Made by a program: the position numbers and the translations under genes. A DNA stretch of 64,000 bases, from assembly GCF_014803405.1 (NCBI RefSeq), contig NZ_JACYFG010000002.1, positions 248,001 through 312,000 of the forward strand. The letters run 5' to 3'. Source of the stretch: Pelagicoccus enzymogenes. Lineage in GTDB: Bacteria; Verrucomicrobiota; Verrucomicrobiia; Opitutales; Opitutaceae. Below the pieces are notes generated by a model. The model saw only the letters and a program-made list of their open reading frames with translations. It searched no databases and had not been told where the DNA came from. Shown here one piece after another: positions 28,766 to 57,123 of this stretch (its first letter is position 1; each line of letters begins with the position of its first letter).

Positions 28766-29680
28766 ATGAAGGAAATCGAGCGACGACAGGACGGATTCAC
28801 GGGCCAAGTCCATTTAATGGTACCCGACGCCCAGCAACGCCTCATGGCCACGCACCCGCTCTTGGCAGGGCTACACGTCACGCACGCGGGATTCTTTCCC
28901 CGAGCAGAGGGCCATTTCCTGAATCGTCCCCGAGGTTGTTCAGATCATGTCCTAATCGCCTGCCTACGCGGCTCGGGTTGGGCTGAAGCCGACGGGCGAC
29001 GCCAGCAGCTCGTACGCGGCGACGTCGTGGGCTTGCGAGCGAATCACCCTCACCTCTACGAAGCATCGGACGAAGATCCTTGGTCGATCGCTTGGGTTCA
29101 TTTCGCAGGCAAGGAGGCAGATGCATGGTTCGAACATGCCACCAGCCAAGGCAAGGCACTTGCAGCCTGTCACACGCCTACGGAGAAACTGGATTCGCTC
29201 GGTATCGACCGTATCCACGCTTCGCTCGCCGCCGGCTACGGGCTGCCCGAGCTTCTCGATGCAGCCGTAAACCTGCGAATGTGCCTCGCGACGATCGCAC
29301 GGAGAAAAGCTCAAAACACCAATGCCCTTTCCGCCCAAGAACGCGTCACCGCCTCTATCGAGATGCTACGAAACAACTGGAAGCAACCCCATATCCTGCC
29401 AGAGCTGGCCGCAGCAGCGGGTGTATCCGTGACACACTATACCACGATCTTTCGGCGACTCACAGGTTTCCCGCCGATCGACTACCTCATACGGCAGCGT
29501 ATCCAGCACGGTGCGACACTGCTAGCGACCACATCCCACCCCATCGGCGATGTATCCAGCGAGTGCGGATTCAGCGATCCCTACTACTTTAGCCGCAGCT
29601 TCTCCCGCATCATGGGAGCATCTCCAAGACGCTACCGGCAGGTCCATCAACATAAGCTCAGTCATAGCGAATCAGCCTAG
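28766..29680 (+). CDS. AraC-family transcriptional regulator
   Basis: A 304-residue regulator. Residues about 20-150 are a cupin-like ligand-binding domain (L-I-A-C-L-R-G-S-G-W-A-E-A-D-G, then the G-D-V-V-G-L-R-A-N-H-P-H-L-Y strand). Residues 205-300 carry the two helix-turn-helix motifs, including L-P-E-L-A-A-A-A-G-V-S-V-T-H-Y and G-D-V-S-S-E-C-G-F-S-D-P-Y-Y-F-S-R-S-F. The ATG at 28766 gives the usual N-terminus; another in-frame ATG at 28718 is possible and neither has a clear ribosome site. It is divergent from the DUF5107 gene (122 bases apart) and probably activates that operon in response to a sugar. Its last nine bases overlap the end of the convergent cytoplasmic GH2 gene. Confidence 0.92.
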   Translation: MKEIERRQDGFTGQVHLMVPDAQQRLMATHPLLAGLHVTHAGFFPRAEGHFLNRPRGCSDHVLIACLRGSGWAEADGRRQQLVRGDVVGLRANHPHLYEASDEDPWSIAWVHFAGKEADAWFEHATSQGKALAACHTPTEKLDSLGIDRIHASLAAGYGLPELLDAAVNLRMCLATIARRKAQNTNALSAQERVTASIEMLRNNWKQPHILPELAAAAGVSVTHYTTIFRRLTGFPPIDYLIRQRIQHGATLLATTSHPIGDVSSECGFSDPYYFSRSFSRIMGASPRRYRQVHQHKLSHSESA

Positions 29681-31981
29681 CGGCTTTGGGGCCTCCGGTC
29701 GTTCGCTGCTTCCAACCATCGTTCCACCGATGCAGTATTCGAAGCTTGTCGCGCCGATCCCCTCGCAAGTGGCAACCAGGGTGAAGCGATCGCAACCGGG
29801 CGATCGATGCAGAACAATCGAGGCAACTCCTGACTCGCAGAGCACGTTCTCCGGACCAACAATCCTTGCTCCTCCCACGATCTCAAAGGCTACTTCGTTT
29901 GTAGCCATCTTGCAGATATTTCCAGCTTGATCCACCAATCTAGCATGAGCAAGCAGGACATCAGCTTCATGCGGGTTGCCGAAAATGCCTTCGTCCGAAA
30001 TTTGTAGAGTCAAACGCGCCGGCGTACCCGGGGTAGCAATACAATGTCGAGCCACCGCTATCCCATCAATTAACCCGGTTGCCTCTAGGGTCCCTCGTTC
30101 AAAACGGTCTAACTGAAACAAGAAGGGCGGGTAGCGAAGGTGCTGATTGTTTAAAGTGAGCGAGGGGACGAGCGGTCCGTGCATTTTGCCGTTCACCGTC
30201 AAAGAAACCTGTTGGCAATTGCTAAATACCAAGACATCGAGAATTGAGTTCTCCACCCATCGCGACGCGATGTACACCATGGGTCCCCCTTTCCAACGGT
30301 CGCTTACCTGATCTGGCGAACGCTGGCTCCGAAAGAAAAAGTAAGAGTACTTCGGCAAACGGTGGATATCCATCACCCCACAGGCGGCCCGAGTGGGACT
30401 GTACCCCCGCGGGTAATCGAACATCGACCAAAGTCCATCGGTAACAGCAGGAGAAGACAAAGTATCGTTCAAAGCGACGATGTGATTATGTGCCTGCCGC
30501 CGCAGGCGGCGTTCGCCCTCGCTACGAAAGGCGCGACTGTTGCTCCAATCCGCAAGTAGGCCTGCCCCCGTCTTTTGATCGAACCCTTCGTTCGAAGCGT
30601 AAAACTCCCAGTCACCATATTCGGCAACTACAAGCGCTTTGTCTCCGTTCTGCCAAGTATGGATCTTACCATGCTGTCTCGAATGGATGAATACGTCGAA
30701 GCGGTCGATCCAGCCACAGACGAGCATCTGGTCTCCCGGAAACTCCTCGTGGCCAATACGCATCAGTTCGGACATGAACGCTTCGTCCATTTCCGTTTCA
30801 TTGAGTGAAAGCTCCCAAAATATTACGCACGGATGGTTACGGTCTCTTCGCACGAGATCCCTCGCGTTTTGGAAACAGGCCTCCCTAAAAGCCTCGCCTC
30901 CGAGGAACTGCCAGCCCGGGATACAATTCATCACTAACAAGCCAAGTTCGTCACAGGCATCTAGAAAGGCTGGAGATTGTGGGTAGTGCGAGAGGCGGAC
31001 GTAATCAAAGCCCGCCTCCTTTATCCTTTTCGCGTCACGATACTGCGCAGCATCCGAAAGGGCGTATCCGATTCTTGGATAATCTTGATGCCGATTGGTT
31101 CCGAGTGGCCGTATTCGCTTTCCATTCAAGCGAAGTCCTTCGCTGCGAGAAACATCGATCCAGCGAATACCAAACCGCTCTTCTACGCAATGAATCAGGA
31201 CCCCTTCCGGACTAACAATTTCCACCACGATCGTGTGGAGGAGCGGAGCGTCTAGATCCCAAAGCTGAGGATTACGAATAACTTCCGAAAACACATGTGT
31301 TCGATCGTCGTAAGCTACCAGCACCTGCGACTCATGGGTGTTTGAGGCAACGATCTTCTTCGACTCATCGAGTATGCGATAACGAATACAATATGGACGG
31401 TTCAAGTTAGACCCGTTTGCCACGTGGACCGAGATCGCAAGAGTCGCCTCTTCCGAGTTCAGTTTCTCGGTACGTACAAATATACCTCCACTTGCTACAA
31501 CACTAGCTGAGACCGGATCCGTAATATGGATGGATGGATAGACTCTCAGCTCAACATGGCGATACAATCCTCCGTAGTAACAGAAATCGAGTTCATCGGA
31601 AGGTTTTCCGGGCGGCACTTCCGCGTTGTCTGTATTGTCGACCACGACGGTCAAAACATGCTCGCATCCATCGGCAACCCACTGGGTAATATCAACTTCA
31701 AACGGAAGGTAGCCTCCAGAGTGGCCTCCGACCCGTTCACCATCGATGGCAACCGCCGTCGTATGCATTGCCGCGCCAAAATGAAGCACGTACTTGGCAT
31801 CCTCTTGGATCGCGTCTAACTTCAGCGCTCGCCGATACTCGCAGAGGCCTTGCCAGTGGTCACACCCGTCTAGGTCTGAGACAAACGGGTTGTGAGGCAA
31901 GCAGACCGAAATCGGCAAATCTTCCGTATCCAATATCCGGAACGACCACCCCTCGATCAAACGTTTTCTAAAAATCGCCAT
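29672..31981 (-). CDS. GH2 beta-galactosidase-type enzyme, cytoplasmic
   Basis: A 769-residue GH2 enzyme without a signal peptide (M-A-I-F-R-K-R-L-I-E-G-W-S-F). The order is jelly roll (about 10-170), Ig-like domain, TIM barrel (about 270-570) and C-terminal sandwich. The acid/base is Glu395 in S-L-N-E-T and the nucleophile Glu454 in V-A-E-Y-G-D. The surrounding L-N-E and A-E-Y-G context differs from the three exported GH2 proteins in the window, so this is a separate subfamily. It is the last gene of an operon with a GPH symporter and a LacI regulator and starts 46 bases after the LacI stop. It most likely splits an imported galactoside or glucuronide inside the cell. Confidence 0.92.
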   Translation of the reverse strand: MAIFRKRLIEGWSFRILDTEDLPISVCLPHNPFVSDLDGCDHWQGLCEYRRALKLDAIQEDAKYVLHFGAAMHTTAVAIDGERVGGHSGGYLPFEVDITQWVADGCEHVLTVVVDNTDNAEVPPGKPSDELDFCYYGGLYRHVELRVYPSIHITDPVSASVVASGGIFVRTEKLNSEEATLAISVHVANGSNLNRPYCIRYRILDESKKIVASNTHESQVLVAYDDRTHVFSEVIRNPQLWDLDAPLLHTIVVEIVSPEGVLIHCVEERFGIRWIDVSRSEGLRLNGKRIRPLGTNRHQDYPRIGYALSDAAQYRDAKRIKEAGFDYVRLSHYPQSPAFLDACDELGLLVMNCIPGWQFLGGEAFREACFQNARDLVRRDRNHPCVIFWELSLNETEMDEAFMSELMRIGHEEFPGDQMLVCGWIDRFDVFIHSRQHGKIHTWQNGDKALVVAEYGDWEFYASNEGFDQKTGAGLLADWSNSRAFRSEGERRLRRQAHNHIVALNDTLSSPAVTDGLWSMFDYPRGYSPTRAACGVMDIHRLPKYSYFFFRSQRSPDQVSDRWKGGPMVYIASRWVENSILDVLVFSNCQQVSLTVNGKMHGPLVPSLTLNNQHLRYPPFLFQLDRFERGTLEATGLIDGIAVARHCIATPGTPARLTLQISDEGIFGNPHEADVLLAHARLVDQAGNICKMATNEVAFEIVGGARIVGPENVLCESGVASIVLHRSPGCDRFTLVATCEGIGATSFEYCIGGTMVGSSERPEAPKPLG

Positions 31982-32016: not shown

Positions 32017-32036
32017 TCAGTTTGAGTCTAAACTGA
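32017..32036. promoter_or_regulatory. Inverted repeat TCAGTTT-N6-AAACTGA at the LacI/GH2 junction
   Basis: Two perfect 7-base arms separated by six bases span the LacI stop codon and lie 36 bases upstream of the cytoplasmic GH2 start. The half-site CAGTTT/AAACTG recurs in the palindromes at 15250 and 44052. It could be an operator for internal control of the GH2 gene, or a short transcript hairpin. Binding is unproven. Confidence 0.3.
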
Positions 32037-33020
32037 ATTCCTTTCGATCATTCGCACCGGCATCTTCACAGTGCGCTTGTTAACTTTTTGCCCTAAGGTA
32101 AGATCATCCAGCATGTCTGCAGCGGCTTCCGCCATCTCGCTCAAAGGTTCCTCAATCGCCGTTAGCGGCGGATTGATCAGTTCTGAAATCCCTTCGTTTT
32201 CGCCCCCAATAATCCCGATATCCTCAGGAACCCGGAGCCCCATCACATAGGTCAATAGATGTATGCACTCCATCGCCTGCAAGCTTGTACCCGGCACGTA
32301 AATACAATCGGCTCCGCCTCTTATGATCCGTGTTACCGCAGCGGAGTCCCGACCGGACCTAGCTGAAATCATCATTCGGTTTTGGTATTCTAGGCCTGCT
32401 TCCTGGATCGCCTGCCGATAACCTTCGAGTCGCTGCTCAAAGCCCTGCCCTTCGCCGCCAAAGCAAGCGAGCTTTTGCTTGCCGTGCTCGATAAAGTATT
32501 TCGCTGCGAGATAGCCTGAATGATAGTGATCTGAGTAGACGCAGTACTGTCGTTCCGTGGCCTCGAACTTATCCATGTAAACAATAGGAATCCGCTTCTC
32601 GAAATCCTTTAGGAAGTCGAGCAACTTTTCATCATAGGTCACCACTACGATGCCGTCCAGGAACAATCCGGGAAGCTCCTCGTAGGGATCCGTAGGCAGC
32701 ACGATGCCCATCTTTCTGCGAGAAAGGGCGAACGATAAGTGAGCAGTCAAAGTGGCTGCATAACCTTCTACGCGGTCAGAAAATAGAGGATCCGTCAGGA
32801 TCGCGATCTGCCGCGCACGAACCGAGGCCTGAGGCTTCAAATCCAGCTCCTTGGCCGCTTTCAGGATGGTCTCACGGGTCTCGCTCTTGACTCGGTCCCG
32901 GTTGTTGAGCACGCGGCTTACGGTGCCGGGCGAAAATCCAGTGTGCTTGGCTAAATCGTAGATCGTAATCTTCTTCGCGGTACCGCTGCCGTTCGTCTTC
33001 ATTGTTTTCGCTTTCTTCAT
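32028..33020 (-). CDS. LacI-family transcriptional regulator
   Basis: A 330-residue repressor. Residues about 13-60 are the LacI helix-turn-helix and hinge (I-T-I-Y-D-L-A-K-H-T-G-F-S-P-G-T-V-S-R-V-L-N-N). Residues 65-330 form the periplasmic-binding-protein-like effector domain (A-I-L-T-D-P-L-F, G-I-V-V-V-T-Y-D, D-I-G-I-I-G-G-E-N-E-G). The ATG at 33020, seven bases after the symporter stop, was preferred over ATG 33002; longer in-frame starts would fall within the symporter gene. It sits between a GPH sugar symporter and a cytoplasmic GH2 on one transcript, so it most likely responds to the imported sugar and represses its own operon. Confidence 0.93.
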   Translation of the reverse strand: MKKAKTMKTNGSGTAKKITIYDLAKHTGFSPGTVSRVLNNRDRVKSETRETILKAAKELDLKPQASVRARQIAILTDPLFSDRVEGYAATLTAHLSFALSRRKMGIVLPTDPYEELPGLFLDGIVVVTYDEKLLDFLKDFEKRIPIVYMDKFEATERQYCVYSDHYHSGYLAAKYFIEHGKQKLACFGGEGQGFEQRLEGYRQAIQEAGLEYQNRMMISARSGRDSAAVTRIIRGGADCIYVPGTSLQAMECIHLLTYVMGLRVPEDIGIIGGENEGISELINPPLTAIEEPLSEMAEAAADMLDDLTLGQKVNKRTVKMPVRMIERNSV

Positions 33021-33027
33021 TTCGCTG

Positions 33028-34488
33028 CTAAACTGTACCTCGACGCTCCTCCAGAGCGTCTCGAGTCTCGTAGGCTCGCTGGCGGGTGATGGGATAAAAA
33101 AACAAGATGGCGATGGCAAGGATCGCCCACACTGCAGTCGAGATGGCGAGGAAGAGCCGTAGCGTCAGGATGCTTTCGGAACTTTGATCACCACCGCGTT
33201 CGGCGTCGAACCCAGACACCTGCAACGCGATCGTCATGCCAAAGATGGAAAGCGAGTAGCCGACCTTTTGTATCCACAAGAATACGGAGCCGAACATGCC
33301 CTCGCGACGTTGCCCATGCCTGAGCTCGTCATCGTCGCAGATATCGGCGACCATCGACGGTAGCAGCACCGCAATAGCGGTCCAGATAGGACCGCAGAAT
33401 AAGGGATCGATCAAAATTTTCCATGGGTTGCCCGGCGTATATAGCACCCATTTCCCGATCGATCCGAAGAAGACCATAGCAAAGATCACGTTCAACGCGG
33501 TCTTCTTCCCGTAGCGGTTCGAAAGCCAGTTTATCGGATAAATGGATACGATTCCCACGATCGCGTACGCTGTGGAAAGCACCGCCTTCCAATGCGAACC
33601 TTCGGTGATATCGCCGTCGAACATATAGTAGACGATCAGGTAATAGTCGGTGCTCGACGCGAACATGCCAGCGACGATTTGACAGATGGTCAAACCCACC
33701 AACACCGCAAAGGCTTTGTTCTTGAGAGACTCCGCGGCGCTCGACCAAAACTTAACCTTCTTCTGCTTCTTGGAGACTTTGTAGTAGCGCTCCTTCACGA
33801 AGATGCCCGGCAAGATTCCGACTACGCCCAAAAGCAAAATCGCCACAACCCAGCCCACGAATCGTACACCATACATCACGCTACCAAAAACCGACAAGGT
33901 CGCCAACGGAAACAGCCACGAATAGCCAAGCTCACCGATCTTGTGAAAAAAGCCGCAAAAGGAGGTCACCCGCGTACGCTCCTTGTAATCAGGCGTCATT
34001 TCAAAGGTCAGGCTGGTCAAGGGCACCCCAAATATGGTGTAGCAGGTGTAAAACACTAGAAGCGAACCGAGCAGGTAGCCGGCCATGGCCTTCTCGCCCC
34101 AATCCATCGGCACCATCCAAATCATGCCAAAGGCGATCGCTTGCAGGATCGCACCAAGCACGATCAATGGCCGGCGACGGCCCCATCGCGTATGCAGGTT
34201 GTCGGAAATGTATCCAACGGCTGGATCCGTGATCGCGTCCCAGAGCCGAGGGATCGACAAGGCCGTACCTAGCAAAATCGGACTCACGTGCAACGTCATG
34301 TTATAAACCGGCATCGCCAGGCTATTGACGGCCATGTTTCCAAAAAACAATGACAGATAGCCGGAGCCCAAGGCTGACTTCTCGCCGAGACTCACCTTGT
34401 CCTCAGGCTTCGTCAGACGGTCCTCCCCCTCCCTCTTAAAGAGTGCGTCGCCGGAGAGCGACCTAGAATTGGATTCGGATTCAATCAT
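33028..34488 (-). CDS. GPH-family (MelB-like) sugar:cation symporter
   Basis: A 486-residue inner-membrane protein of about 12 helices. The block S-I-P-R-L-W-D-A-I-T-D-P-A-V-G-Y-I-S-D followed by T-R-W-G-R-R-R-P-L-I is the glycoside-pentoside-hexuronide (GPH) family signature; its aspartates couple cation and sugar binding. An N-terminal extension of about 35 polar residues precedes the first helix. The ATG at 34488 has AAAGAG eleven bases upstream. It leads a three-gene operon with LacI (7-base gap) and a cytoplasmic GH2, matching uptake and hydrolysis of a galactoside, pentoside or glucuronide. The cargo cannot be read from sequence. Confidence 0.92.
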   Translation of the reverse strand: MIESESNSRSLSGDALFKREGEDRLTKPEDKVSLGEKSALGSGYLSLFFGNMAVNSLAMPVYNMTLHVSPILLGTALSIPRLWDAITDPAVGYISDNLHTRWGRRRPLIVLGAILQAIAFGMIWMVPMDWGEKAMAGYLLGSLLVFYTCYTIFGVPLTSLTFEMTPDYKERTRVTSFCGFFHKIGELGYSWLFPLATLSVFGSVMYGVRFVGWVVAILLLGVVGILPGIFVKERYYKVSKKQKKVKFWSSAAESLKNKAFAVLVGLTICQIVAGMFASSTDYYLIVYYMFDGDITEGSHWKAVLSTAYAIVGIVSIYPINWLSNRYGKKTALNVIFAMVFFGSIGKWVLYTPGNPWKILIDPLFCGPIWTAIAVLLPSMVADICDDDELRHGQRREGMFGSVFLWIQKVGYSLSIFGMTIALQVSGFDAERGGDQSSESILTLRLFLAISTAVWAILAIAILFFYPITRQRAYETRDALEERRGTV

Positions 34489-34656
34489 GCAGGCTAAACT
34501 CTTTCTTTGGAAGCGCATCGTGCGCACTGCCCAATCGTCAGCAGGTCAACCCCATGGGCGTTCGCACCGACACAGACATTCGGGAGCGCAGGTGAACAGG
34601 TCAAAAGTTTAATCATTCGTCATACTTTTTTATTAAAGTTGAACCACCGCGAGTAT

Positions 34657-37600
34657 TCACCATTTCACCTCCTCTATTTCTAGGCGTATCGGTTGTGCTG
34701 GGCCCTCTCCCCTTGCCTCAACCCTGAATCGGCCCGCATCCAGCGGAACTACGAGCGCAGCAGAGAAGGCCTTCGCCTCCTCTGCGCTCATGCCATCACG
34801 CAAGGCCAGCACCTCGACGATCGAGTCAAGGCTGCCTCGGTCACGTACTTTGTTGCTGGCGACAAGCGTCTCTCCATCAGCGTCGACACGTGAAAGCGAA
34901 ATCGTTGGCCGCGTGGATTCCTCGCCGTTCGTCCAAGCCCGTACGGCAAGTAGCCGGACTTCCCCACTCTCAATTTCAAACTCGGCCGAGACCGCTTCCT
35001 GCGTTCCCACTGGCGATGCGAGCAATGCGTCCGATAGGCCGCTCGCCTTCACTACAACCTTGTAATCAGGGGAATAGGAAGTGGATGGATCGTCATCGAA
35101 AACAAAAAACACGCCTTCATCCCCCGCCTGTTGAGCGGCGTCGACGCTGCTCGCTTGCGAGATAGGCCTCGGTTGCCCGTCATCGAAATCCAAAGTTACG
35201 AAGTTGCCATCGCTCCCACCGGCAGTCTTCAGCCCGAATATAGACTGCCTTAACGCGCTCGGCTTCACTGCCTTGCCTCTCAGCGAATGCGCCTTCAAGA
35301 AGGCTTCCACCCCTATACGTGCTCCCAACGTTCGACCAATAAAGTCGTCCGCTCGGACGTGGATACCGCCATAGAGGCGCGAGAGGCCCGCTTGGTCCGC
35401 GGCGTCGAAATAGGTTGCCCACTGCAAGGTCACGTCATCGCTTGGCCCGTACTCGAATTCGAGGAACTCGCCTTTCGGAAAGGTGTACTGCCCCATCCCG
35501 CCCGGGAAATAGGGCGAACCTGTAAGCAGCGAAACGACCTCAGCTCCGGCACGACTAAAAGTGCTGTGACCTGAAACATAAGCCGCGAAAGCCGGCGTCA
35601 CGAAGGTGCTGCGCTGGTACGGCAACCAGTTCTCCGCAAGGATCCAATCGACACCGCCGACTTGGGTATGGCTATCGGCCGGTTCACCGGCCCAAGCTCG
35701 TATCGCAATCTTTCCTATCTCGGCAGACAAGTGCTCGTGACGCTGCCCTGCCGCCACGCTTGCCTCAGTTACCACCTCGATCAAGCCCTCTATCAGCGGC
35801 AATCCGTAAACATGATAGCTCGGTCCATCGGGATCGCTCGATTGCCCAAATCCTCCTAGGCAGCGAATCATGGAGATGGGCCGCGAATAGTCGTATTGCC
35901 GCTTCAGGGTCCATGCTGCCACCGCCGCATCGTGCATGGCGCCATTCAAGGCGAGATACGATTGGATGTTCCATTCCAGCTCGTCCATCTCCACGCCTAG
36001 GCCCATGTACTTGCGCTCGAACAAAGGGTGCTCGCTCACTTCGTTCAACAACGTATTCCAGTGCCCCGGGGGCGTTTCCGAAGCTGGGCCGTCGGCCCAA
36101 AACTCGGCCAAGATTCTCCCATAGTCCGCGTGGTTGACCATATTCGGCTCGTACGGCTTTGGCTCTCCCGTTTCAGGATCGAGATCGAAGGGGTTCACGC
36201 TTCTGCCCTGCCCATCATTCGTTCCCAAAGGATTATTCAGCAAACCTCCGGGCGACACGTCGATCATCTCGCCCCCAGCCGGATCCAAGAGCGAGGAGTA
36301 GCGAATCACTTCCACCGCAGCCGCCACGAATTGGTCGTGCGTCTCCGTCCCAAACAGGGGCGGCGAACCGGGATCCCAAGCTATGGTTATTCCGCTGTCC
36401 TTCTCGATCGCGAACGTGTCCACTTCGCGCCAATTCACGCCTACGAAGCTCTGCACCTTTTCCTCGGTGGGTATTCCATTCTGCGTTACCCTAAAATCGA
36501 AGGCAAGCGGCTGCCAACGATTGGGGTCGGCCATGTTCGTACCGGGCAGCTTAAAGACCATCGGCTCGTTCGCTGCCTCGTAGCCACTTGTGTCCACGTA
36601 TCCATTCGACTCGTTTGATCCGTCGTTGAGCGTTTGCTGGAGAATACTAGCAGCGATCCGATTGCCCACGGCGGCAGGCGCATTGCCTTCGATTGAGTCA
36701 ATAAGGACATCGTAGCCCAACTGATCCATGAGCCAGGTGATATTGTAAAGTATTCGCTCGCTGCTTACACTGTTTCGGTAGCGCTGCTCAAGCACTCGAA
36801 AGCAGGCGTAGCTGATTGCTTCCCGCTGGGACGCAATGCGGTCCCCGTGCCAATCCGCCTCGGAGAGGGGTTCCTGATGAAACACTGCTCGGGCTCGGTT
36901 CCAACCGTCCGACTCGTAGGCCCAGAAAACATCCCACATCACAGCGGAAAGGTGGTACAGGTTTCTGCCGTGAATCGTTGGGGCAGGAAAATCCTTGCGG
37001 ATGGCATCCAACAAAAACTCGTTCCACCATCGGGCCACAGAGTGATCTTCCAGTGCGATCCCCACCTCGACCAAAACTTCATTAGTCAATGTCTCCCCTG
37101 CAGCGTTTTTGACACGCGCTCGATAGACTCCGGCATCGTAAGGCTGTAGGAGCTTGATGTTCAACTCGTGTCGGTTGGCTCCATCAAGCGGAACACCATC
37201 TTTCTCCCAGCTGACGGTCACGCCCGTGTCGCCAAGCACCGCCAGCGACAGTTCAAGTCTTTCCCCTACCTCGAAACTCCCACCGACTGGCTGTGTCTCG
37301 ATGATTGGAGCGATGAGCTCAACATCCGGCTCCACCAACAAATGCACTTCATTTGTATTCAGATTTTCTATATCCTGCCGAATCCCGCTCGGCCAGATCA
37401 CCTGAATGGAGTCTACCGTTTCGCCGGCATCCCCCAGTCCCAAGTGCAATACGCCTTCCCTTTGCCCCATGTAGGCATTGCTTGGATTGAAGAGAGCAGT
37501 CTGGGTCTTCGCTCCATCGGTCACGCGGACCACGGCTCCAATTCCGTCTCGATTCGACTGATCACCTTGTAAGCGAAAGCGTATCCACTTCTTTCCATTT

Positions 37601-38964
37601 TCGGACGCGTTGCTCCGATAAACGATCGGCTTGCCGAAGGTTTGGGTGACGATCACATCCTCGTCGCCGTCGTTATCGTAGTCCAGTACTACGACCGCCT
37701 TCCCATATCCCTGGTCCGCCACTCCCGAAGCTGGAGTGATATCGTTAAACCGTCCCGCACCGTCATTTTGAAATACTGTGGTGGGGTCGTCGAGGGCGTC
37801 CTGATAAAAGAAAACTTCCCATTCAGCCGAATCCATGCCGTTCGTAACAAAAAGGTCCGGATCGCCATCGTTGTCGTATTCGAAAAACGCCGCACCCCAA
37901 GACCACCCGACACGATCCACTCCCGCCGCCTTGGCAACTTCGTAGAATCGCCTTGATCCAGAATTCTGATACAACTTGTTTCCAGTGTTCGTACCCGTTT
38001 CGTCGAAGAGCTTCTGGTCGAAAATCGATGTCGCATAGTAGTCCAGGTCTCCGTCCAAATCGTAGTCCGCGATAGCGATCCCCATGCCAAACTCGTCCAG
38101 CCCAACACCAGCCGCATCGGTGCCTTCGATAAAGGTACCGTCCCCGCGATTCCAGTAGAAGCGGCTTCCTCCAAAATCCGCCATCAAAGCGAGATCCGGC
38201 CAACCATCCTCGTCGAAGTCGGCCCATCCAGTAGAAAACCCGTGCTGTCTGGCAACAGCATTTTCAGGTTGAGCCAGCCCGGCCGCCAGGGTTACGTTTT
38301 CGAAGTGTCCTGGGTTTTCTGCCCCTAGGTTTCTCAATAGCACGGAGTGCAGGTCTGGCTCCACACCAGCATCTGGTCCCCACTCGCTCACGTAGACGTC
38401 CAAGTACCCGTCCAAATCAAAATCGACCAGCCCGACGCTGTGCCCTTCGTGCGGAAGCTCGCTGGTCGAAACCGCCGCTCCCCGTTGCGTGGCTTCCTCT
38501 ACGAAGACGCCTGTCCCATCGTTGATAAAAAGATAGTAGCGCTCGCCACGATGCGGTACGACGAATAGGTCCTGATCACCATCTCCATCGAAGTCACCTG
38601 CGGCAAACGCTCCGCTGTCCTGCGCCACCGATAGCCCCCGTGCATCGCCTTCTTCGACGAAGGTTCCATCCCGCTGGTTTATAAACAACACGGGAGGCTT
38701 GTTGTATCGCCCCGCTACGAAATCCGTCCACCCATCGCCGTCCGCGTCAAACGCGGCAGCGCCCGCATGGTTTGAAACCGGGGTGTGAGTCACTCGATCC
38801 AAGCCCAAGGCTTCGTTACTCGGGACTTCGATCTTGTCCGCATGCAAATAGTCAATCCCCACGCTGTCGCTAACGTTAGTAAACCGCGCGAATCCGTTGT
38901 TCGAATACATCAAGGCACCGACGCATAGGAACGTCCGTATGAAAGCTGACGGGCTCGCCTTCAT
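34657..38964 (-). CDS. Fusion: FG-GAP/ASPIC-UnbV propeller, Ig-like domain and vanadium haloperoxidase/PAP2 domain, exported
   Basis: A 1435-residue secreted protein. After a signal peptide come FG-GAP/VCBS repeats with calcium loops such as D-A-D-G-D-G-W-T-D (about 40-450), an ASPIC/UnbV domain (about 470-545, V-I-W-P-S-G-I) and an Ig-like domain (about 555-640, V-S-W-E-K-D-G). A vanadium-haloperoxidase-like helical domain follows (about 645-1230). The whole vanadate/phosphatase signature is intact: K-x6-R-P (K-R-Q-Y-D-Y-S-R-P, about 1020), S-G-H-S (about 1131) and S-R-x5-H-x3-D (S-R-L-Y-G-G-I-H-V-R-A-D, about 1192). A C-terminal beta-rich tail of about 200 residues ends it. Haloperoxidases oxidise halides with peroxide; acid-phosphatase activity is an alternative. 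Its ATG directly abuts the TAA of the TPR gene upstream, so the pair is coupled. Confidence 0.88.
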   Translation of the reverse strand: MKASPSAFIRTFLCVGALMYSNNGFARFTNVSDSVGIDYLHADKIEVPSNEALGLDRVTHTPVSNHAGAAAFDADGDGWTDFVAGRYNKPPVLFINQRDGTFVEEGDARGLSVAQDSGAFAAGDFDGDGDQDLFVVPHRGERYYLFINDGTGVFVEEATQRGAAVSTSELPHEGHSVGLVDFDLDGYLDVYVSEWGPDAGVEPDLHSVLLRNLGAENPGHFENVTLAAGLAQPENAVARQHGFSTGWADFDEDGWPDLALMADFGGSRFYWNRGDGTFIEGTDAAGVGLDEFGMGIAIADYDLDGDLDYYATSIFDQKLFDETGTNTGNKLYQNSGSRRFYEVAKAAGVDRVGWSWGAAFFEYDNDGDPDLFVTNGMDSAEWEVFFYQDALDDPTTVFQNDGAGRFNDITPASGVADQGYGKAVVVLDYDNDGDEDVIVTQTFGKPIVYRSNASENGKKWIRFRLQGDQSNRDGIGAVVRVTDGAKTQTALFNPSNAYMGQREGVLHLGLGDAGETVDSIQVIWPSGIRQDIENLNTNEVHLLVEPDVELIAPIIETQPVGGSFEVGERLELSLAVLGDTGVTVSWEKDGVPLDGANRHELNIKLLQPYDAGVYRARVKNAAGETLTNEVLVEVGIALEDHSVARWWNEFLLDAIRKDFPAPTIHGRNLYHLSAVMWDVFWAYESDGWNRARAVFHQEPLSEADWHGDRIASQREAISYACFRVLEQRYRNSVSSERILYNITWLMDQLGYDVLIDSIEGNAPAAVGNRIAASILQQTLNDGSNESNGYVDTSGYEAANEPMVFKLPGTNMADPNRWQPLAFDFRVTQNGIPTEEKVQSFVGVNWREVDTFAIEKDSGITIAWDPGSPPLFGTETHDQFVAAAVEVIRYSSLLDPAGGEMIDVSPGGLLNNPLGTNDGQGRSVNPFDLDPETGEPKPYEPNMVNHADYGRILAEFWADGPASETPPGHWNTLLNEVSEHPLFERKYMGLGVEMDELEWNIQSYLALNGAMHDAAVAAWTLKRQYDYSRPISMIRCLGGFGQSSDPDGPSYHVYGLPLIEGLIEVVTEASVAAGQRHEHLSAEIGKIAIRAWAGEPADSHTQVGGVDWILAENWLPYQRSTFVTPAFAAYVSGHSTFSRAGAEVVSLLTGSPYFPGGMGQYTFPKGEFLEFEYGPSDDVTLQWATYFDAADQAGLSRLYGGIHVRADDFIGRTLGARIGVEAFLKAHSLRGKAVKPSALRQSIFGLKTAGGSDGNFVTLDFDDGQPRPISQASSVDAAQQAGDEGVFFVFDDDPSTSYSPDYKVVVKASGLSDALLASPVGTQEAVSAEFEIESGEVRLLAVRAWTNGEESTRPTISLSRVDADGETLVASNKVRDRGSLDSIVEVLALRDGMSAEEAKAFSAALVVPLDAGRFRVEARGEGPAQPIRLEIEEVKW

Positions 38965-40737
38965 TTAGCCGTCCTCCTTGAGCCGCTGTTCTATGACCCT
39001 GCGCAATTCGCGATTTCCCTCGCTGCGTACCATGGCCTCTTTCCAGCTGGCTATAGCTCCTTCCAAATCTCCAGATGCCATTCTCACGTCTCCAAGGCTT
39101 ACATACAAAACGGGGTCGTCAGGGCGCCGCTCGATCAGGTCCGCTACGGTCGCTTCGGCCAGGTCGAAGCGTTCGAGCTTCAGGCAAAGCTGCACCTTGT
39201 TCAGGTAAGCCTCCTCGCCATCTGCCGAGACGTCGATCGCTCGATCGTAAAAACTGATAGCGGAATCGAATGCGCCCGCCCGGGCTTCCTCGTTTCCTGT
39301 ACGCAAGCAAGCCAAAGCGAGCAAAGCGCTGGCATCCTGATTTTTCGGGTCGATCTCTACCGCCTCTTGCAAGGGATCGATCGCATCCTCCGGTCGGTCT
39401 AGCTCAAGAGCATAGCGGCCAATCATAACCCGCGAGGCTATGTCCTGAGTAAGCAACTGACGCAGTTTTTGGAGGGCCTCGACAGATTCGTTTCGTTTTC
39501 CCAGGCTCCAGTAAAGCCGAGAAATTTCGCGATTTCCTTCAACGTGATAGGGATCCATCGCCAAGGCTTTCTCCAACCATTTTTTCTGTTCAGCGCTCCC
39601 ACGTTCTCCTGCGAGTGAGGCCATCAAAACAAGGATGTCCGCGTCTCCTCCCGTACGGTTGATTTCCTCGAGCACGACGGACTCTGCACGTTTTCCCAAG
39701 CCTGCTTTCGCCAGAGAATCGGCAAGAAAATAGCGAACGGTGGACGGGTCGCCCCCATTTTCCAAGGCTTGCTCGTAGGCCTCTGCCGCATCCGCGTAAC
39801 GGCCTACTTGGTAGAAGGCGTATCCTCTTTGCTGGTACGCGTGCGGGTCATTAGGCCGTATCGCTTCCATCCGGTCTACCAGTTCCAAAGCCCGATCAAG
39901 CTCGCCAGCCTTGAGATGATTCTCGAACGCGAAACCGAGTCGCTGGCTGTCGTAGCAATCGCTCATCAAGGAATCTAGCCATGGATCCTCCAGAGGGGAA
40001 GGCTTTTGACGAGGTGCGCTCTCGCGGATTTCCGCTGCGAGCTGCCCCTGCCCGACCCGTTCCAATGCTTGGCTCAGCAATGAGAACCCATCCGAAAACC
40101 CGGGATTCGCGAGCACCAGCTTTTTCAACGTGACAATAGATTCTTGTACATCGTTTTCGCGCAATTGGTCGCGCGCTATTGCCAGCAAAGCTTGTGGCTG
40201 CGTTTTGTGCGAATCGAGAATGCTGCGATACCGCTGTAAGGCATGGTCGGCGTCGCCTGACTTGTATTCCAGTTCCGCCAACTTGAGACGGGCCGGCAGA
40301 TAGTCGGGCGTTTTCTCCAAACAATCGAACAAGGACGTTCGGGCCATAGCGAAATCGCCCATCTGGCTCGCTAGATCAGCACGACGGTAAAGCAGGATAT
40401 CCGCTGCTACATCGCTCTCGCTCAACGCGATTTTGTAGCACGCTAGTGCTTCCACGTTGAATCCATTTATATGATACAGGCCTGCCAGCTCGACAATCGA
40501 CTGCCCATGATCGTTCCACGGCAGCAGGAGCCGGCTCTCGATCCTGTCTATACGATGATCCAATTCCGTGGGAAAGCCCTCGGTGTCCGGACGATCTGGA
40601 AGCGCCGAACGGATTGCCCTACCATCGGCACCGCCCCAAAAGAGCCCGACCGCTATCGCTACCGCCACAGAGAAACCAATGGAAACAAAGAGTAATAATT
40701 TTGATTTCGAACGCAGCATCGGGGTTTTGCAGGCCAT
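38965..40737 (-). CDS. TPR-repeat protein with N-terminal membrane anchor
   Basis: A 590-residue protein. The ATG at 40737 is used (an upstream TTG at 40755 and ATG 40719 are alternatives). Residues about 8-32 are a signal anchor (L-L-L-F-V-S-I-G-F-S-V-A-V-A-I-A-V-G-L). From about 70 onward the chain is tetratricopeptide repeats, for example H-A-Y-Q-Q-R-G-Y-A-F-Y-Q-V-G-R-Y-A-D-A-A, arranged as a periplasmic scaffold. Its stop is immediately followed by the start of the haloperoxidase fusion with no intervening base. TPR and UnbV-type proteins are repeatedly found together in Planctomycetes and Verrucomicrobia. The function is unknown; assembly or presentation of the giant secreted partner is plausible. 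Confidence 0.88.
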   Translation of the reverse strand: MACKTPMLRSKSKLLLFVSIGFSVAVAIAVGLFWGGADGRAIRSALPDRPDTEGFPTELDHRIDRIESRLLLPWNDHGQSIVELAGLYHINGFNVEALACYKIALSESDVAADILLYRRADLASQMGDFAMARTSLFDCLEKTPDYLPARLKLAELEYKSGDADHALQRYRSILDSHKTQPQALLAIARDQLRENDVQESIVTLKKLVLANPGFSDGFSLLSQALERVGQGQLAAEIRESAPRQKPSPLEDPWLDSLMSDCYDSQRLGFAFENHLKAGELDRALELVDRMEAIRPNDPHAYQQRGYAFYQVGRYADAAEAYEQALENGGDPSTVRYFLADSLAKAGLGKRAESVVLEEINRTGGDADILVLMASLAGERGSAEQKKWLEKALAMDPYHVEGNREISRLYWSLGKRNESVEALQKLRQLLTQDIASRVMIGRYALELDRPEDAIDPLQEAVEIDPKNQDASALLALACLRTGNEEARAGAFDSAISFYDRAIDVSADGEEAYLNKVQLCLKLERFDLAEATVADLIERRPDDPVLYVSLGDVRMASGDLEGAIASWKEAMVRSEGNRELRRVIEQRLKEDG

Positions 40738-40810
40738 CGAACCGTAATAAAACAAAAAGGCGAGGCCCAGGAAAAAGCTGATTCAGTCTTTGGAAGAAGA
40801 CCTTTGTTCT

Positions 40811-40873: not shown

Positions 40874-43855
40874 TTAGAAGCTAAACGTCGACTGCAAGGT
40901 CCATGTAGGGCCAAACTCGATACGGAAACCAGACTCCTGTCCGTCAGAGTTGGCGTTGATCGCCTGGAACCCTTCGTTGCGTGTGAGGTTGCGCACGTTC
41001 AACTGGACGTTTAGGTCGACGCGGTCGTTCATGATCTTCTTGTCGAAACCGATCCAGAAATCGACGTCGAGAGTCGCCTCGTCCATGTAAGGGCTGTTGA
41101 GCTCCAGACCAATCACATCGCCCGCTTCGTTGTTGATGGTCGGGAAGCCGATCGCAGCGTCATCCTGCCAACGAAGGGCTCCACCGATGTTCCAGCCTTT
41201 CATACCACCATCAGTAAAGGTGTAGTTGGTAATGGCATTGGCACGCCACTCGCGAAGCTGAGGATTGGTGGTACCCTCGGCCGCGTTGTAGGTCGCCGCG
41301 GAGAATGCAGGGAACGCATCGTAGAACTCGGATGGATTCCCCTCGAAGCCCCAGGTAGAATACGTGAAATCGCTATTCCAGACGGAACCGCCGCCTACGT
41401 TCTGCCAATATGGAAGAGCCTCTTCCAGGAACCGTGTAACAGCTGGAGCGATAGCGGAGGAAACCGCATCCTGCTGGGAAACGTTGGCCATGAAGCGCCA
41501 GTTTTCAGTCGGGTTGTAGATCATCTCGATTTCCATGCCCTTCGAGGTCATTTCAGAGGTGGTCACGATATTGATATCGCCTACGCTGAGAGGTGAGACC
41601 GGAGTGTAGGAAACGCCCTCTAGAGCGGCCACATCAGCCATCACGTTTTGGTCGATAAAGAGCAGCTCCCATTGGGCAAGGCGCATGGCGGGTCCCCAAG
41701 GCAGTCGATTGTTGGTCTGCTCGACCTCGTACCAATTGACGCGCAGGTTCATCTTGCCTTCAAGCAGGTTGAGCCCGAAGCCGTAGTCGACGCCCTCTCC
41801 CGTTGGCGGGGGCACGGACTCGTTGAACATGTTAACCTGGGTAGCGGCAGGACGGAAGTTTTCCGACTCGTTGTAATGCAAGCTAAGCCAATCGAGCGGG
41901 TGAACCACCACACCCATGGTGGTGGTGGGGCCACCTGATTCCGCAGGATCGCCCGCGGAATCGCCGAGGATCAGCAATCCGTCGTCGCCGAGCGCTGTGT
42001 AGGAGTTCGTGGCCTTCTCCTGGGTGTCATCGCGCCAGCCAGCGGTGCCTACGACCTTACCTTCGAGCCAGTAGCTCTGCCAGATAAAGCCGGTTGATTC
42101 GACGGTTTCCGCCTGAACATCGCGACGCTTGGGCGTAAACATCGAGCTGTAGCTATCGGTCGCCCACATGCCAGCGTCCGCATCCCAATAGAGGTTGGGC
42201 ACGCCTGACGGCGTCAGGTCCGGAACGCCCGGAGCCATGGTGGCTGGAGAATCGGCGGTGCCGCCGAGATAGCGGATACGCGTCATTTGCCACAAGTCCT
42301 CGTTCACCCGATTGTTGGTGGGGAGGTAGTCCACCAGCTCGGAGCGGATCTCATTGAAAACCGTATTGGTGTTGCCCGTTTCTTGGCGCTCCGCCAAAGC
42401 CGTAAAGTTGTGGCGTCCGAGCCACTTGTTGCGCTCGCGGAAATCCAGCTCATAGGTCAATGTACCGCGCAGCATTTCATTGTCGACGTTGCGGATCGAC
42501 TTGCTGTCGAGCGTTCTCTGAGGAACGTAGGTCTCGCCGAAGTGCGGATTCGGAGTACCGTCCATGAAGTGAGAATTGTTATCTACCCAAATCTGGAAGC
42601 CCCAGGTGAATCGTTGGGTATCCTCCTCGTAGTCCTCAGACAAGTATCCAACGTTCAGATACAAGTTCTCCGCGAGCTTCTGGTCCCAAGTGAAGGTAAG
42701 GGCTTCGAAGTCGTGGTTGCGAAGGCTGGGATTGAGATTCATGTCATGGAAGGGAGCGATCTTGTTGTCGGAAAAAGCGACCGAGGTGAAGTTGTCGGCG
42801 TCGCCGCGCTGCTGCACGACCCCGGTAAACCAGCGGTCGTTGCCCCCAGTTAGAAACTGAACCGTGTTTCCATCGTAGTCGGTAATCGCTACGGCCCCCA
42901 CGTTCTGCGGACGAGTGAGGTAGTCCGGAGACTCGCTGTACAGCTGCTCCGCAGCGTTCCAAGCGGGCCTTCCCTGCTCCACCCATTCAGACACGTAGTC
43001 GATCGGAGTGATGGAATTCGGGTTGTTCTGCTCCTGACGCGCCACTTCGTAGTTCAGCTTGAAGGTTGAGTTCTCGAAAGGTTTGTAGGTCGTCGCTAGG
43101 TTCAAGCGATTGTCGTGATAGTACGCAGGCTGCTGCTGGTAGCCCCGATCGGCCCAAAGCCCTAGGACGCGCACAGCCAACTTGTCGTCGATGAGCACAC
43201 GGTTGAAGTCTGCGGTCGTCCGAAAGTCGGTGTTGGATCCGACTCGAAGCGACAATTCCGTACTGTCTTCCGCGACCAGAGCGCTTTTGGTCGCGTAGTT
43301 AACCACGCCCGCTGGATCAGCCATCCCGTAGAGAATGGAGTTCGGGCCGCGATTGACGGTCACGCGCTCGAGGTTGTAAGCGTCGATACCGACGCTTCCG
43401 CCAATCGAGCGGAAAAAGTCACGGGTAAGCTCGGCGCTGCCTAGGCCGCGCACACGGTTCTGGATGTTCGGGTTGTCGGACACGAAGTCCTGAGTACCGT
43501 TTCCTCCCGCGTTGGTGTAGTTTAGCGTACTTTCCGTATTGGCAGTGTACACGAGGATGTCGTTCAAATCGGCCGCACCAACGTCCTCGATGAAGTCCTC
43601 AGTCACCACGCTGATCGAAGCGGCGACGTCCTTCAATTGGGTGTTGATGCGACTGCCCGCCAAGGTGCTGTTCGCGCGGTAGCCTTGGTCTTCATCCGCG
43701 TTCACTTCAAATGGAGAGAGCGTGAAAACTTCATCGTCCTCTTCATTGTCCTGAGCCCAACCAAGTGAAAGCGGCACGGCTGACACAAGGGCAACAATCG
43801 CAGCGTTTCGGGCCAGCAATCGTGGAGCATAGGGGTACTTTTCTGTCTGTTTCAT
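40874..43855 (-). CDS. TonB-dependent outer-membrane receptor (Opitutae type)
   Basis: A 993-residue receptor. A signal peptide (cut near G-W-A-Q) leads into an acidic stretch and the F-T-L-S-P-F-E-V motif (about 46-53). The plug domain follows (about 58-200: S-T-L-A-G-S-R-I-N-T, V-T-V-N-R-G-P-N-S-I-L-Y-G). The rest is a 22-strand barrel ending in a terminal Phe (T-L-Q-S-T-F-S-F), as needed for BAM insertion. The S-P-F-E-V block probably serves as the TonB-contacting region. No carboxypeptidase-like domain and no SusD partner are present. These receptors import oligosaccharides or siderophores; the neighbours suggest a glycan. A palindrome at 44052 lies 197 bases upstream. Confidence 0.94.
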   Translation of the reverse strand: MKQTEKYPYAPRLLARNAAIVALVSAVPLSLGWAQDNEEDDEVFTLSPFEVNADEDQGYRANSTLAGSRINTQLKDVAASISVVTEDFIEDVGAADLNDILVYTANTESTLNYTNAGGNGTQDFVSDNPNIQNRVRGLGSAELTRDFFRSIGGSVGIDAYNLERVTVNRGPNSILYGMADPAGVVNYATKSALVAEDSTELSLRVGSNTDFRTTADFNRVLIDDKLAVRVLGLWADRGYQQQPAYYHDNRLNLATTYKPFENSTFKLNYEVARQEQNNPNSITPIDYVSEWVEQGRPAWNAAEQLYSESPDYLTRPQNVGAVAITDYDGNTVQFLTGGNDRWFTGVVQQRGDADNFTSVAFSDNKIAPFHDMNLNPSLRNHDFEALTFTWDQKLAENLYLNVGYLSEDYEEDTQRFTWGFQIWVDNNSHFMDGTPNPHFGETYVPQRTLDSKSIRNVDNEMLRGTLTYELDFRERNKWLGRHNFTALAERQETGNTNTVFNEIRSELVDYLPTNNRVNEDLWQMTRIRYLGGTADSPATMAPGVPDLTPSGVPNLYWDADAGMWATDSYSSMFTPKRRDVQAETVESTGFIWQSYWLEGKVVGTAGWRDDTQEKATNSYTALGDDGLLILGDSAGDPAESGGPTTTMGVVVHPLDWLSLHYNESENFRPAATQVNMFNESVPPPTGEGVDYGFGLNLLEGKMNLRVNWYEVEQTNNRLPWGPAMRLAQWELLFIDQNVMADVAALEGVSYTPVSPLSVGDINIVTTSEMTSKGMEIEMIYNPTENWRFMANVSQQDAVSSAIAPAVTRFLEEALPYWQNVGGGSVWNSDFTYSTWGFEGNPSEFYDAFPAFSAATYNAAEGTTNPQLREWRANAITNYTFTDGGMKGWNIGGALRWQDDAAIGFPTINNEAGDVIGLELNSPYMDEATLDVDFWIGFDKKIMNDRVDLNVQLNVRNLTRNEGFQAINANSDGQESGFRIEFGPTWTLQSTFSF

Positions 43856-44147: not shown

Positions 44148-45416
44148 TTACTGGCTACGCTGCCAAAGACTCACGCGGCTGACATGGATCATGGGAGGAT
44201 AAAAATAAAAGCCTCCGCTTACTAACTCGACCCTACCGTCACCATCCAAATCTCCTGCTTCGAGCGCGATCAGATGAGTTGGAGCGTGAGCGAGGATGCG
44301 CTTTTCGAAGCGTCCTCCACCTAGATTTTCGAAGCAGGCCAAGGATATCGCGTTCGCGTCCGACCAATCGTTGAAGGCGCTGGTAGCAAGAAAATCCAGA
44401 TCCCCATCGCCGTCGATATCGGCCACACAGGGAGCGTAAGCGCCCGACAAGTCCCCAATGCGGCGATACTCGAATTCGCCCGAGCCATCATTCTCCAGCC
44501 ACTGGACACCGTGCCAACGCCGAGCTCCGGGAGTGGCATAGTCGAAGCCATCGCCATTGGTGTAGGCAATGTCCACGTCCCCATCCAAATCCATATCCAA
44601 CAATTGGATACCGCTGCTGCCAAAATCTTTGTTGGTTGAACCAAAAAGGACTTTCGCCTCGAAACGCCCCTCTCCTAGGTTCTCGAACAGGTAAATTTCC
44701 TCCCAGTCCTGGGAAACGAGAGCGATGATATCGAGGTCTCCGTCCCCATCAACGTCCGCGATCGGAGTGTGGATCGTCCCGGAAAGGCCCAGCAAGCTAT
44801 GGCTCGCGAACTCCAAATCTCCCCTATTCTCTAGCCAACGAATCTCGCCCTCGAAGTATCCAAACGCGCCAACCGACAAATCCAAGTCCCCGTCCCCGTC
44901 TAGGTCCCCCGCCTGCACATCCGTCACGCGATCAATTCCCTCCACCAAAACGCGCTTAGAGAAACCCTCTCGCCCGTCGTTCTCCAAGACGACCACGGCT
45001 CCAATCTTTTGATCGTTTGGCGTCACAATTCCCATGCTCGCCACCAATAGGTCAAGATCTCCATCCCCATCTAAATCGCATGCCTCCACATGAGCCGCTC
45101 CAGCGACTCCATCTGCGAGTGTCAATTCCTCGAAAACACCCCGCTCGACCTGTCGCATCCATCCCACCATATTCAATCGCCCTTCCGTGAATACGACATC
45201 CACCAACCCATCCCCATCCAGATCGACAATCGACAAGTCCGTCACCCAAGGACGCCCTTCTATGGGATCACCTATCGTCTTCCACTTCATGTATTCAACA
45301 TTCAGTACAGATTCGACGCCATTCACCGGCTCATCCTCAAGACCACTCTTCTCCTTGCCACAAGAGACCAATAGAAAACTAAGCCCAACTAGACTATTAG
45401 CCATAAGGTAGCGCAT
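44148..45416 (-). CDS. FG-GAP/VCBS-repeat lipoprotein
   Basis: A 422-residue lipoprotein: residues 1-19 end in a good lipobox, L-V-S-C (Cys19). The rest is a seven-bladed FG-GAP/VCBS propeller with repeated calcium loops D-L-D-G-D-G-D-L-D (at least six visible). A second ATG at 45404 would still leave the lipobox. No enzymatic residues are recognisable; such propellers usually bind proteins or carbohydrates. Location on the periplasmic or outer leaflet is inferred from the lipid site. It precedes the TonB receptor on the same strand by 292 bases with a palindrome between, so it may belong to the same uptake system, as a SusD-like accessory in role though not in sequence. Confidence 0.88.
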   Translation of the reverse strand: MRYLMANSLVGLSFLLVSCGKEKSGLEDEPVNGVESVLNVEYMKWKTIGDPIEGRPWVTDLSIVDLDGDGLVDVVFTEGRLNMVGWMRQVERGVFEELTLADGVAGAAHVEACDLDGDGDLDLLVASMGIVTPNDQKIGAVVVLENDGREGFSKRVLVEGIDRVTDVQAGDLDGDGDLDLSVGAFGYFEGEIRWLENRGDLEFASHSLLGLSGTIHTPIADVDGDGDLDIIALVSQDWEEIYLFENLGEGRFEAKVLFGSTNKDFGSSGIQLLDMDLDGDVDIAYTNGDGFDYATPGARRWHGVQWLENDGSGEFEYRRIGDLSGAYAPCVADIDGDGDLDFLATSAFNDWSDANAISLACFENLGGGRFEKRILAHAPTHLIALEAGDLDGDGRVELVSGGFYFYPPMIHVSRVSLWQRSQ

Positions 45417-48791: not shown

Positions 48792-49197
48792 GCCTAAAAA
48801 TTCCCGATTTCATGCTCGAAACGATGAGTCCCGATTACGTCCTTACCTATAACTTTAGTCATAACACGGCTATATCCACGCACCTAGTCGGAAAATTCAA
48901 CGTCTACCTTACACGAGGTTGATAAGCCTCAGAAATGCTAAAAGTTCGGCCCTAAAACCAAAAATCCCCACCAACGCCTCCCCCTGCCTAGCGGCCTACC
49001 CACCGACGCTCCCCGAAACTTCCGGGCCCCCGCGAGCCAAACCACTGCTACCTCCCCCTATCGCCGACTTCCAGCGCACGACTCACCCTGCCGCCGCACC
49101 GCCCCACCCCTTTTCGACTCTACCCCTTTTTCGCCAATGGCAAACGCCAGCGGCAAAACGAAAAAAAACGAACCCATACCCAAAACAAGCTACAACT
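48792..49197. other. Leader region of TonB receptor
   Basis: This 406-base stretch lies between the palindrome and the receptor ATG. The receptor frame stays open upstream to 48919, but those 93 codons are proline-rich, lack a signal peptide and fall in a C-rich tract, so I read it as an untranslated leader. No confident promoter boxes or riboswitch fold seen. Confidence 0.45.
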
Positions 49198-57052: not shown

Positions 57053-57123
57053 ATTAGTTACCCCAAACAAAGCTTTCCGCCCGCACCAAGTCAAGGGCAA
57101 GGCCCCGTCTAGATCCGCCCCAC

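Follow-up and report, generated by a model that had tools for sequence, protein, structure and literature searches.

A single gene in the 64,000-nucleotide stretch of Pelagicoccus enzymogenes DNA analyzed here (NZ_JACYFG010000002.1, positions 248,001-312,000, hereafter the window; the genome comprises 6.2 Mb in 60 contigs) encodes a 1435-residue fusion protein that we read, with moderate confidence, as an exported vanadium-dependent haloperoxidase (VHPO) carried on a calcium-binding propeller of the CRTAC1 type. This is a known enzyme family in a new, recurrent architecture, and the coupling of a VHPO with a CRTAC1 propeller across two phyla is not described in the literature searched. The evidence comes from the domain make-up of the protein, the VHPO family to which its enzyme domain can be assigned, and the recurrence of the same pairing, fused or neighboring, in other bacteria.

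An enzyme domain of the VHPO family on a CRTAC1-like propeller

An earlier note, made from the sequence alone, had described one 1435-residue open reading frame joining an FG-GAP/UnbV propeller and an immunoglobulin-like (Ig) domain to an enzyme domain, and both the list of open reading frames and Pfam bear this out. Matches above the Pfam cut-offs comprise FG-GAP_3 (2.6e-40), UnbV_ASPIC (residues 474-540, 2.8e-16) and I-set (residues 555-625, 1.5e-6), followed in the enzyme part by DUF6851 (residues 711-819, 9.5e-9) and VCPO_2nd (residues 1002-1039, 1.8e-6, 28.5 bits against 27), the last two of which we take to be Pfam markers of VHPOs. FG-GAP repeats followed by UnbV_ASPIC, the order by which we call a protein CRTAC1-like, are present according to Pfam and to the CRTAC1 structure 9etn, which aligns with residues 62-528 (E 4.4e-12). 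Searching the PDB with the single protein returned VHPOs, CRTAC1 and Ig proteins, and no NCBIfam family was found for it at E ≤ 0.1. A relative in Verrucomicrobiae bacterium DG1235 (locus L001) matches residues 12-1434, reaching 70% identity in the best segment. The protein is probably exported, as judged from a signal-like stretch read by eye at its N-terminus. Its C-terminal domain was considered as a general sorting tag and rejected as such, for a single-sequence search of its own genome matched the fusion protein itself and, weakly, one paralogue, and nothing else.

Membership of the enzyme domain in the VHPO family is well supported, because sequence motifs, PDB profiles, the predicted fold and invariant catalytic residues agree. 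The three signature blocks reported in the earlier note (K-x6-R-P, S-G-H and S-R-x5-H-x3-D) are all present and in order, and the ordered set, even with loose spacing, never arose in 20,000 shuffled versions of the protein. All 24 aligned family rows, that of the window protein among them, share Lys1021, Arg1028, His1133, Arg1196 and His1202, and the same catalytic K, R, H, R and H recur in all eight rows of the wider alignment A4. Profiles of two depths were compared with the PDB. With profile A1, built from 14 close relatives, 10 of 10 distinct sequences at E ≤ 0.01 belong to the VHPO family; with the wider profile A4, built from eight sequences, so do 22 of 22 matches at E ≤ 0.001, spanning iodo-, chloro- and bromoperoxidases and NapH1/NapH3. 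The best A4 match is the vanadium iodoperoxidase of Zobellia galactanivorans (4cit/4usz; 3.1e-56), a member of the same family whose alignment covers all three motifs, and the catalytic residues of the window protein align with those of the solved VHPOs.

The earlier note had proposed a structure prediction for comparison with known haloperoxidases. A first model (residues 545-1435, three sequences) gave a predicted local distance difference test score (pLDDT) of 35.1 and a predicted template modeling score (pTM) of 0.24, and was set aside as evidence neither way. The second, from eight sequences, reached medium confidence (pTM 0.69, mean pLDDT 60.4) and has the VHPO helical-bundle fold according to Foldseek, where all 17 matches with E ≤ 0.001 belong to the VHPO family. 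Viral contigs held no relative detectable with the close-family profile; a wider profile gave five loci, two single-protein scans one more and a last scan none, all used only to deepen the second alignment. The VHPO-like genes concerned (L285-L290) lie on contigs filed as viral in IMG/VR.

Comparison with solved enzymes indicates where the fusion departs from them. The nearest by Foldseek are XhnO11 (9l8x), NapH1 (3w35/3w36) and NapH3 (8cxl), with 9l8x also the best A1 match; unlike the fusion, none of these has a propeller. The vanadium chloroperoxidase of Curvularia inaequalis (1idq and mutants) matches by fold and profile, and is a fungal protein of 609 residues, again without a propeller. 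The Zobellia iodoperoxidase is a 458-residue chain consisting of the enzyme unit only, whereas the window domain has longer inserts and lies within a 1435-residue protein. CRTAC1 (9etn) in turn aligns with the propeller/UnbV part only, its 586-residue chain leaving no room for a VHPO. The solved VHPO chains compared span 458-666 residues, so the fusion is far longer than any of these, in line with the earlier note, which had called known bacterial haloperoxidases much shorter. That note also knew of no experimental account of the architecture, and our search of the open-licence literature likewise found no paper on a haloperoxidase joined to FG-GAP, UnbV, VCBS or CRTAC1. One Rhizobium genome paper contains the words haloperoxidase and VCBS once each (PMC3557214), and the term FG-GAP is absent from the main text of two papers discussed below (PMC5064120, PMC9296495).

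Conservation was measured as identity between the window protein and each other row, with the stand-alone VHPOs L151 and L152 left out of the 21 rows. The catalytic stretch is 55-90% identical in these rows (48% in L151 and 33% in L152), the first half of the VHPO domain 46-85%, the propeller 33-92% (20 rows), the Ig domain 24-78% and the C-terminal domain 9-51%. In every row except L135 the catalytic stretch is the best conserved domain, a pattern that fits a working enzyme carried by a less constrained module. Within the family, one group of paralogues (L134, L145, L147, L148 and L149) has Ala for Ser before the second Arg and CG for GG before the last His.

Recurrence of the pairing in Verrucomicrobiota and Bacteroidota

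A search for this architecture across Verrucomicrobiota, suggested in the earlier note, reveals that the fusions recur. Long fusions number at least 21 in 10 of 38 genomes surveyed (own genome included, best 15 candidates per genome scored), and one of the eight genus members, G005, has none among the candidates scored. The genome of the window itself carries five fusions; the four outside the window have frames of 1367-1450 residues and 53-68% identity over the VHPO part. When the survey was extended to the class (384 genomes, best three candidates per genome scored), 50 genomes matched the VHPO profile at E ≤ 1e-10; fused frames in the window's family measure 1375-1530 residues, and those of other families are mostly 647-904 residues long. 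On a 74-domain VHPO tree, three changes are required to explain the label "fused", and L133 and L146, a pair, group with L150 (an Ig-VHPO protein without a propeller) next to the stand-alone clade at weak support (80/71). A tree of 68 domains, built by a quick method with 12 stand-alone rows of the class kept, places the 25 Verrucomicrobiota fusions and L150 in one fork (support only 82). These trees make it likely, though not certain, that the fusion arose once in Verrucomicrobiota and was later lost in places. Two further loci of the class differ in layout: L210:7314-11428, in another family, carries a propeller-VHPO fusion over two overlapping frames (a real split or a sequencing error), and L209:8134-12342 holds one 1403-residue frame with two complete tandem VHPO domains, motifs intact in both.

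The large VHPO clade also occurs in 22 of 395 Bacteroidota genomes (best three candidates per genome scored), with at least 27 full-length domain matches. Pfam, run on 11 of these 27 proteins (the longer frames and two of ordinary length), joins FG-GAP to VHPO in three. L291 (1951 residues) combines FG-GAP, VHPO, thrombospondin-3 repeats and a type IX sorting tail; L302 combines FG-GAP and VHPO; and L311, whose N-terminal end lies beyond the fetched stretch, combines FG-GAP, UnbV, PKD, VHPO and a type IX sorting tail. As in the window fusion, the propeller stands in front of the VHPO in all three. L311 has the same domain order with a PKD linker instead of Ig, and L291 and L302 differ in that neither UnbV nor Ig was matched. 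The active-site set is complete in L291, whose VHPO is 45% identical to that of the window protein over 626 columns as opposed to only 26% for the propeller. Type IX tails appear at E ≤ 0.001 on eight of the 11 proteins (L291, L292, L294, L298, L308, L311, L316 and L319; six above the Pfam cut-off), which supports export of the Bacteroidota large-clade VHPOs to the surface or medium. Three Bacteroidota VHPOs (L292:3930-6875, L319 and L309) contain MopE-type metal-binding motifs, two of them together with a type IX tail.

Inspection of the 68-domain tree places L291, L302 and L311 within the Bacteroidota VHPO clade (Shimodaira-Hasegawa-like approximate likelihood ratio test support 99), apart from the Verrucomicrobiota fusions. 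L291 groups with L302 (99), and L311 sits elsewhere with L314 (85, inside a group at 97). The simplest reading of this sequence tree would be at least three separate fusions over the two phyla; one ancient fusion followed by many losses would also explain the fusions of both phyla and is not the simplest reading.

Pairing without fusion was addressed with profile A2 (E ≤ 1e-20, best six candidates per genome scored), which describes a distant, mostly smaller VHPO group and matched 30 of 247 Acidobacteriota and 57 of 247 Bacteroidota genomes. One locus per genome was taken around the best match. The Bacteroidota sample covers 31 of the 57 genomes (the first 30 by handle and G845), and the Acidobacteriota sample covers 29 loci, the 30th genome (that of L060) having been found through CRTAC1 and left out. 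A gene was counted as CRTAC1-like if it matched the local profile at E < 1e-20, and for L277 the distance was taken from a second VHPO copy adjoining the best match. In Bacteroidota, 13 of 31 loci have a CRTAC1-like gene no more than 300 bp from the VHPO, sharing its strand in 12 of them, and at distances of up to 5 kb the count rises to 17 of 31; L276 has a further neighboring CRTAC1 match under the threshold. UnbV matches total 139 over the roughly 124 Mb of these 31 genomes, an average of about 4.5 each; with genes spaced at roughly one per kb, an adjacency of about 0.2% is expected by chance. UnbV occurs in all 31 VHPO-bearing genomes versus 11 of 31 lacking a VHPO match, figures uncorrected for genome size and kinship. 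Among small-clade loci of the window's class, a CRTAC1-like gene lies within 300 bp in 2 of 11 and within 5 kb in 3 of 11; the small VHPO of the window's own genome (L152), outside the pairing counts, directly precedes an UnbV gene.

The converse notion, that CRTAC1 genes in general stand beside VHPOs, was rejected, as only one of 79 other CRTAC1 loci (L060) has a VHPO in the fetched stretch. At that locus, from Holophagales, five CRTAC1-like frames follow one another and a VHPO gene comes after them (L060:1957-18346). Near a Bacteroidota CRTAC1-CRTAC1-VHPO run, about 3.5 kb away on the opposite strand, lies a GMC oxidoreductase gene (L264:12640-14367), a possible source of hydrogen peroxide.

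TonB-dependent receptors were traced around 24 related loci, made up of 23 propeller fusions plus the Ig-VHPO L150 and counted without the window's own locus, L151, L152 and L210. The profile used was trained on receptors of the fusion-family loci, that of L151 included, and may miss other receptor types. Ten of the 24 loci have a receptor within 500 bp, and 14 have one within 5 kb. None of the 25 non-fused large-clade loci in other families of the class, the tandem L209 included, has one at either distance.

Proposed mechanism and alternative readings

The best-fitting reading is most likely a VHPO that is secreted or sits at the surface and is kept in place by its propeller, with role, halide and uptake link inferred. 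That the same pairing, fused or neighboring, is found in a distant bacterial group suggests that propeller and enzyme work together. The exported enzyme would act outside the cytoplasm. By analogy with solved VHPOs, vanadate would bind His1202, with Lys1021, Arg1028, Ser1131, Gly1132 and Arg1196 holding the oxyanion and His1133 serving as acid/base. Hydrogen peroxide would then serve to oxidize a halide, most likely bromide or iodide, to a hypohalous species. Through its propeller, stiffened by calcium, the enzyme would be docked to a surface, a glycan or a partner (the neighboring TonB-dependent receptor, for example), an arrangement that would keep the short-lived oxidant local, and the linked receptor may take up the product.

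Several observations weigh against this reading. The propeller of L135, the closest relative, is conserved to the same degree as its catalytic stretch (92% and 90%). Six of 24 family rows have Ala in place of the Ser preceding the second Arg, and 214 of 607 residues in the second, medium-quality model fall below a pLDDT of 50. The Bacteroidota VHPO loci are akin to each other, so the 13 adjacencies are not 13 independent events. Nor is the pairing universal: in Acidobacteriota a CRTAC1-like gene lies within 300 bp in 0 of 29 VHPO loci (five of the stretches shorter than 7 kb), and among non-fused large-clade Verrucomicrobiota loci in 0 of 25, with 2 of 25 within 5 kb. Nine of the 24 related loci have no receptor in the fetched stretch, some ending at a contig edge, and one further locus has it only at 8.5 kb. 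A receptor also adjoins L151, a stand-alone VHPO of the same order without any propeller, and the association with receptors may therefore be a property of the VHPO by itself. In the window's own genome, 7 of 19 UnbV genes lie within 7 kb of a TonB receptor (2.7 expected, p~0.011) and 3 of 19 within 5 kb, which is not significant, part of the contig extents being estimated; a general UnbV/TonB-receptor linkage there is weak and modestly above chance.

A rather unlikely alternative, and the one that survives best, holds that FG-GAP repeats are promiscuous adhesion modules found on many exported enzymes and that their pairing with a VHPO is a passive by-product, uninformative about halide chemistry. 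The abundance of the module is in keeping with it, as 23 UnbV matches occur in the genome of the window alone and FG-GAP/UnbV mostly occurs without a VHPO at the CRTAC1 loci surveyed. Against this stand the Bacteroidota adjacency, far above its base rate, and fusions arising in separate places of the tree.

It is improbable that the pocket instead holds phosphate in a phosphatase that dephosphorylates extracellular phosphorylated glycans or lipids. VHPOs are related to PAP2 acid phosphatases, the neighborhood is one of glycan degradation, and activity of this kind is reported for the Curvularia chloroperoxidase (PMC4859513). No phosphatase, however, is found among the 22 PDB profile matches or the Foldseek matches at E ≤ 0.001, the first in the Foldseek list being human lipid phosphate phosphatase 1 (E 1.1) and PhoC (E 2.9). 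By profile (PDB matches, DUF6851 and VCPO_2nd) the domain is nearer to VHPOs than to acid phosphatases, and its PAP2 match falls below the Pfam cut-off (15.5 bits against 27.2). Furthermore, Trp at K-3 (23 of 24 family rows) is shared with the aligned 9l8x, NapH3, NapH1 and Zobellia enzymes, and Phe at H-7 (24 of 24 rows) with the Zobellia enzyme; we take these to correspond to Trp350 and Phe397 of the Curvularia enzyme. Phe at H-7 was also tried as a predictor of chloride specificity and rejected, since the Zobellia iodoperoxidase has Phe there too. Finally, a VHPO-fold enzyme with other chemistry, be it halide-free sulfoxidation, phenol oxidation or a rearrangement like that of NapH3 (8cxl, a close fold and profile match titled as a VHPO homologue for alpha-hydroxyketone rearrangement), seems hardly probable, because in the A1 alignments NapH3, like 9l8x, lacks the SGH histidine, which the window protein (His1133) and all 24 aligned rows keep.

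Returning to the propeller-positioned haloperoxidase, a broader possibility can be put forward tentatively: that the FG-GAP/CRTAC1 propeller and VHPO form a recurrent two-module machine for extracellular halide oxidation in Verrucomicrobiota and Bacteroidota, existing as a neighbor pair or as separately evolved fusions, calcium-dependent via the propeller and coupled to TonB-dependent uptake. The solved haloperoxidases compared are single enzymes lacking such a module. CRTAC1-like proteins are numerous in these bacteria and, to our knowledge, mostly without assigned function, and the fusion or gene pairing gives them a testable partner. The pairing predicts halide oxidation that is calcium-dependent, localized and linked to uptake, which matters for how iodine and bromine cycle at the surfaces of algae. 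Iodine uptake by Arenibacter strain C-21 is reported to need calcium and hydrogen peroxide, and at least five genes homologous to the Zobellia iodoperoxidase are present in that strain (PMC5064120); Zobellia itself raises expression of one vanadium iodoperoxidase on the brown alga A. nodosum (PMC9296495). If it exists, the two-module machine could be a missing component behind the calcium and peroxide requirement of strain C-21.

Gene neighborhood in the window

The congener locus L135 and locus L001 both share the gene order around the fusion. The glycan-degradation surroundings noticed earlier are confirmed by the GH2, GH43, GH88, GH35, arabinofuranosidase, MFS_2/GPH-type symporter and LacI regulator genes in the window; SusD is absent from the 26 window proteins scanned.

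Table 1 Features of the fusion gene and its neighbors (positions within the window)
Feature	Position	Strand	Basis or remark
Whole fusion gene, 1435 aa, ATG start	34657..38964	-	Open reading frame list, Pfam
Putative signal-peptide-like N-terminus, residues 1-26	38887..38964	-	Read by eye
FG-GAP propeller, residues ~62-470, six strict DxDxDGxxD calcium-type motifs	37555..38781	-	Pfam, motif count
UnbV_ASPIC domain, residues 474-540	37345..37545	-	Pfam
Ig (I-set) domain, residues 552-634	37063..37311	-	Pfam, PDB search
VHPO domain, residues 640-1232	35269..37047	-	Pfam, PDB profiles, structure model, Foldseek
K1021-x6-R1028-P1029 motif, Trp1018 at K-3	35878..35904	-	Sequence, alignment
S1131-G1132-H1133 motif, Phe1126 at H-7	35566..35574	-	Sequence, alignment
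S1195-R1196-x5-H1202-x3-D1206 motif	35347..35382	-	Sequence, alignment
C-terminal domain, residues 1240-1435	34660..35247	-	No Pfam match
TPR protein	38965..40755	-	Stop codon directly adjoins fusion start; in L135 (81%) and L001 (40%)
TonB-dependent receptor (Plug)	40874..43855	-	Upstream of fusion, beyond the TPR gene; same strand as fusion
Short FG-GAP protein	44148..45416	-	Common to L135 and L001
MFS_2/GPH-type symporter	33028..34527	-	Directly downstream of fusion; also in L135, partial match in L001
LacI-type regulator	32028..33119	-	Common to L135 and L001
GH2 glycosidase	29672..31981	-	Common to L135 and L001

Farther along the window, a second TonB-dependent receptor (48919-52881, + strand) faces a 1256-residue double-UnbV FG-GAP protein that has no VHPO (53435-57205, - strand), so that a CRTAC1-like gene and a receptor pair up in the window without the enzyme as well.

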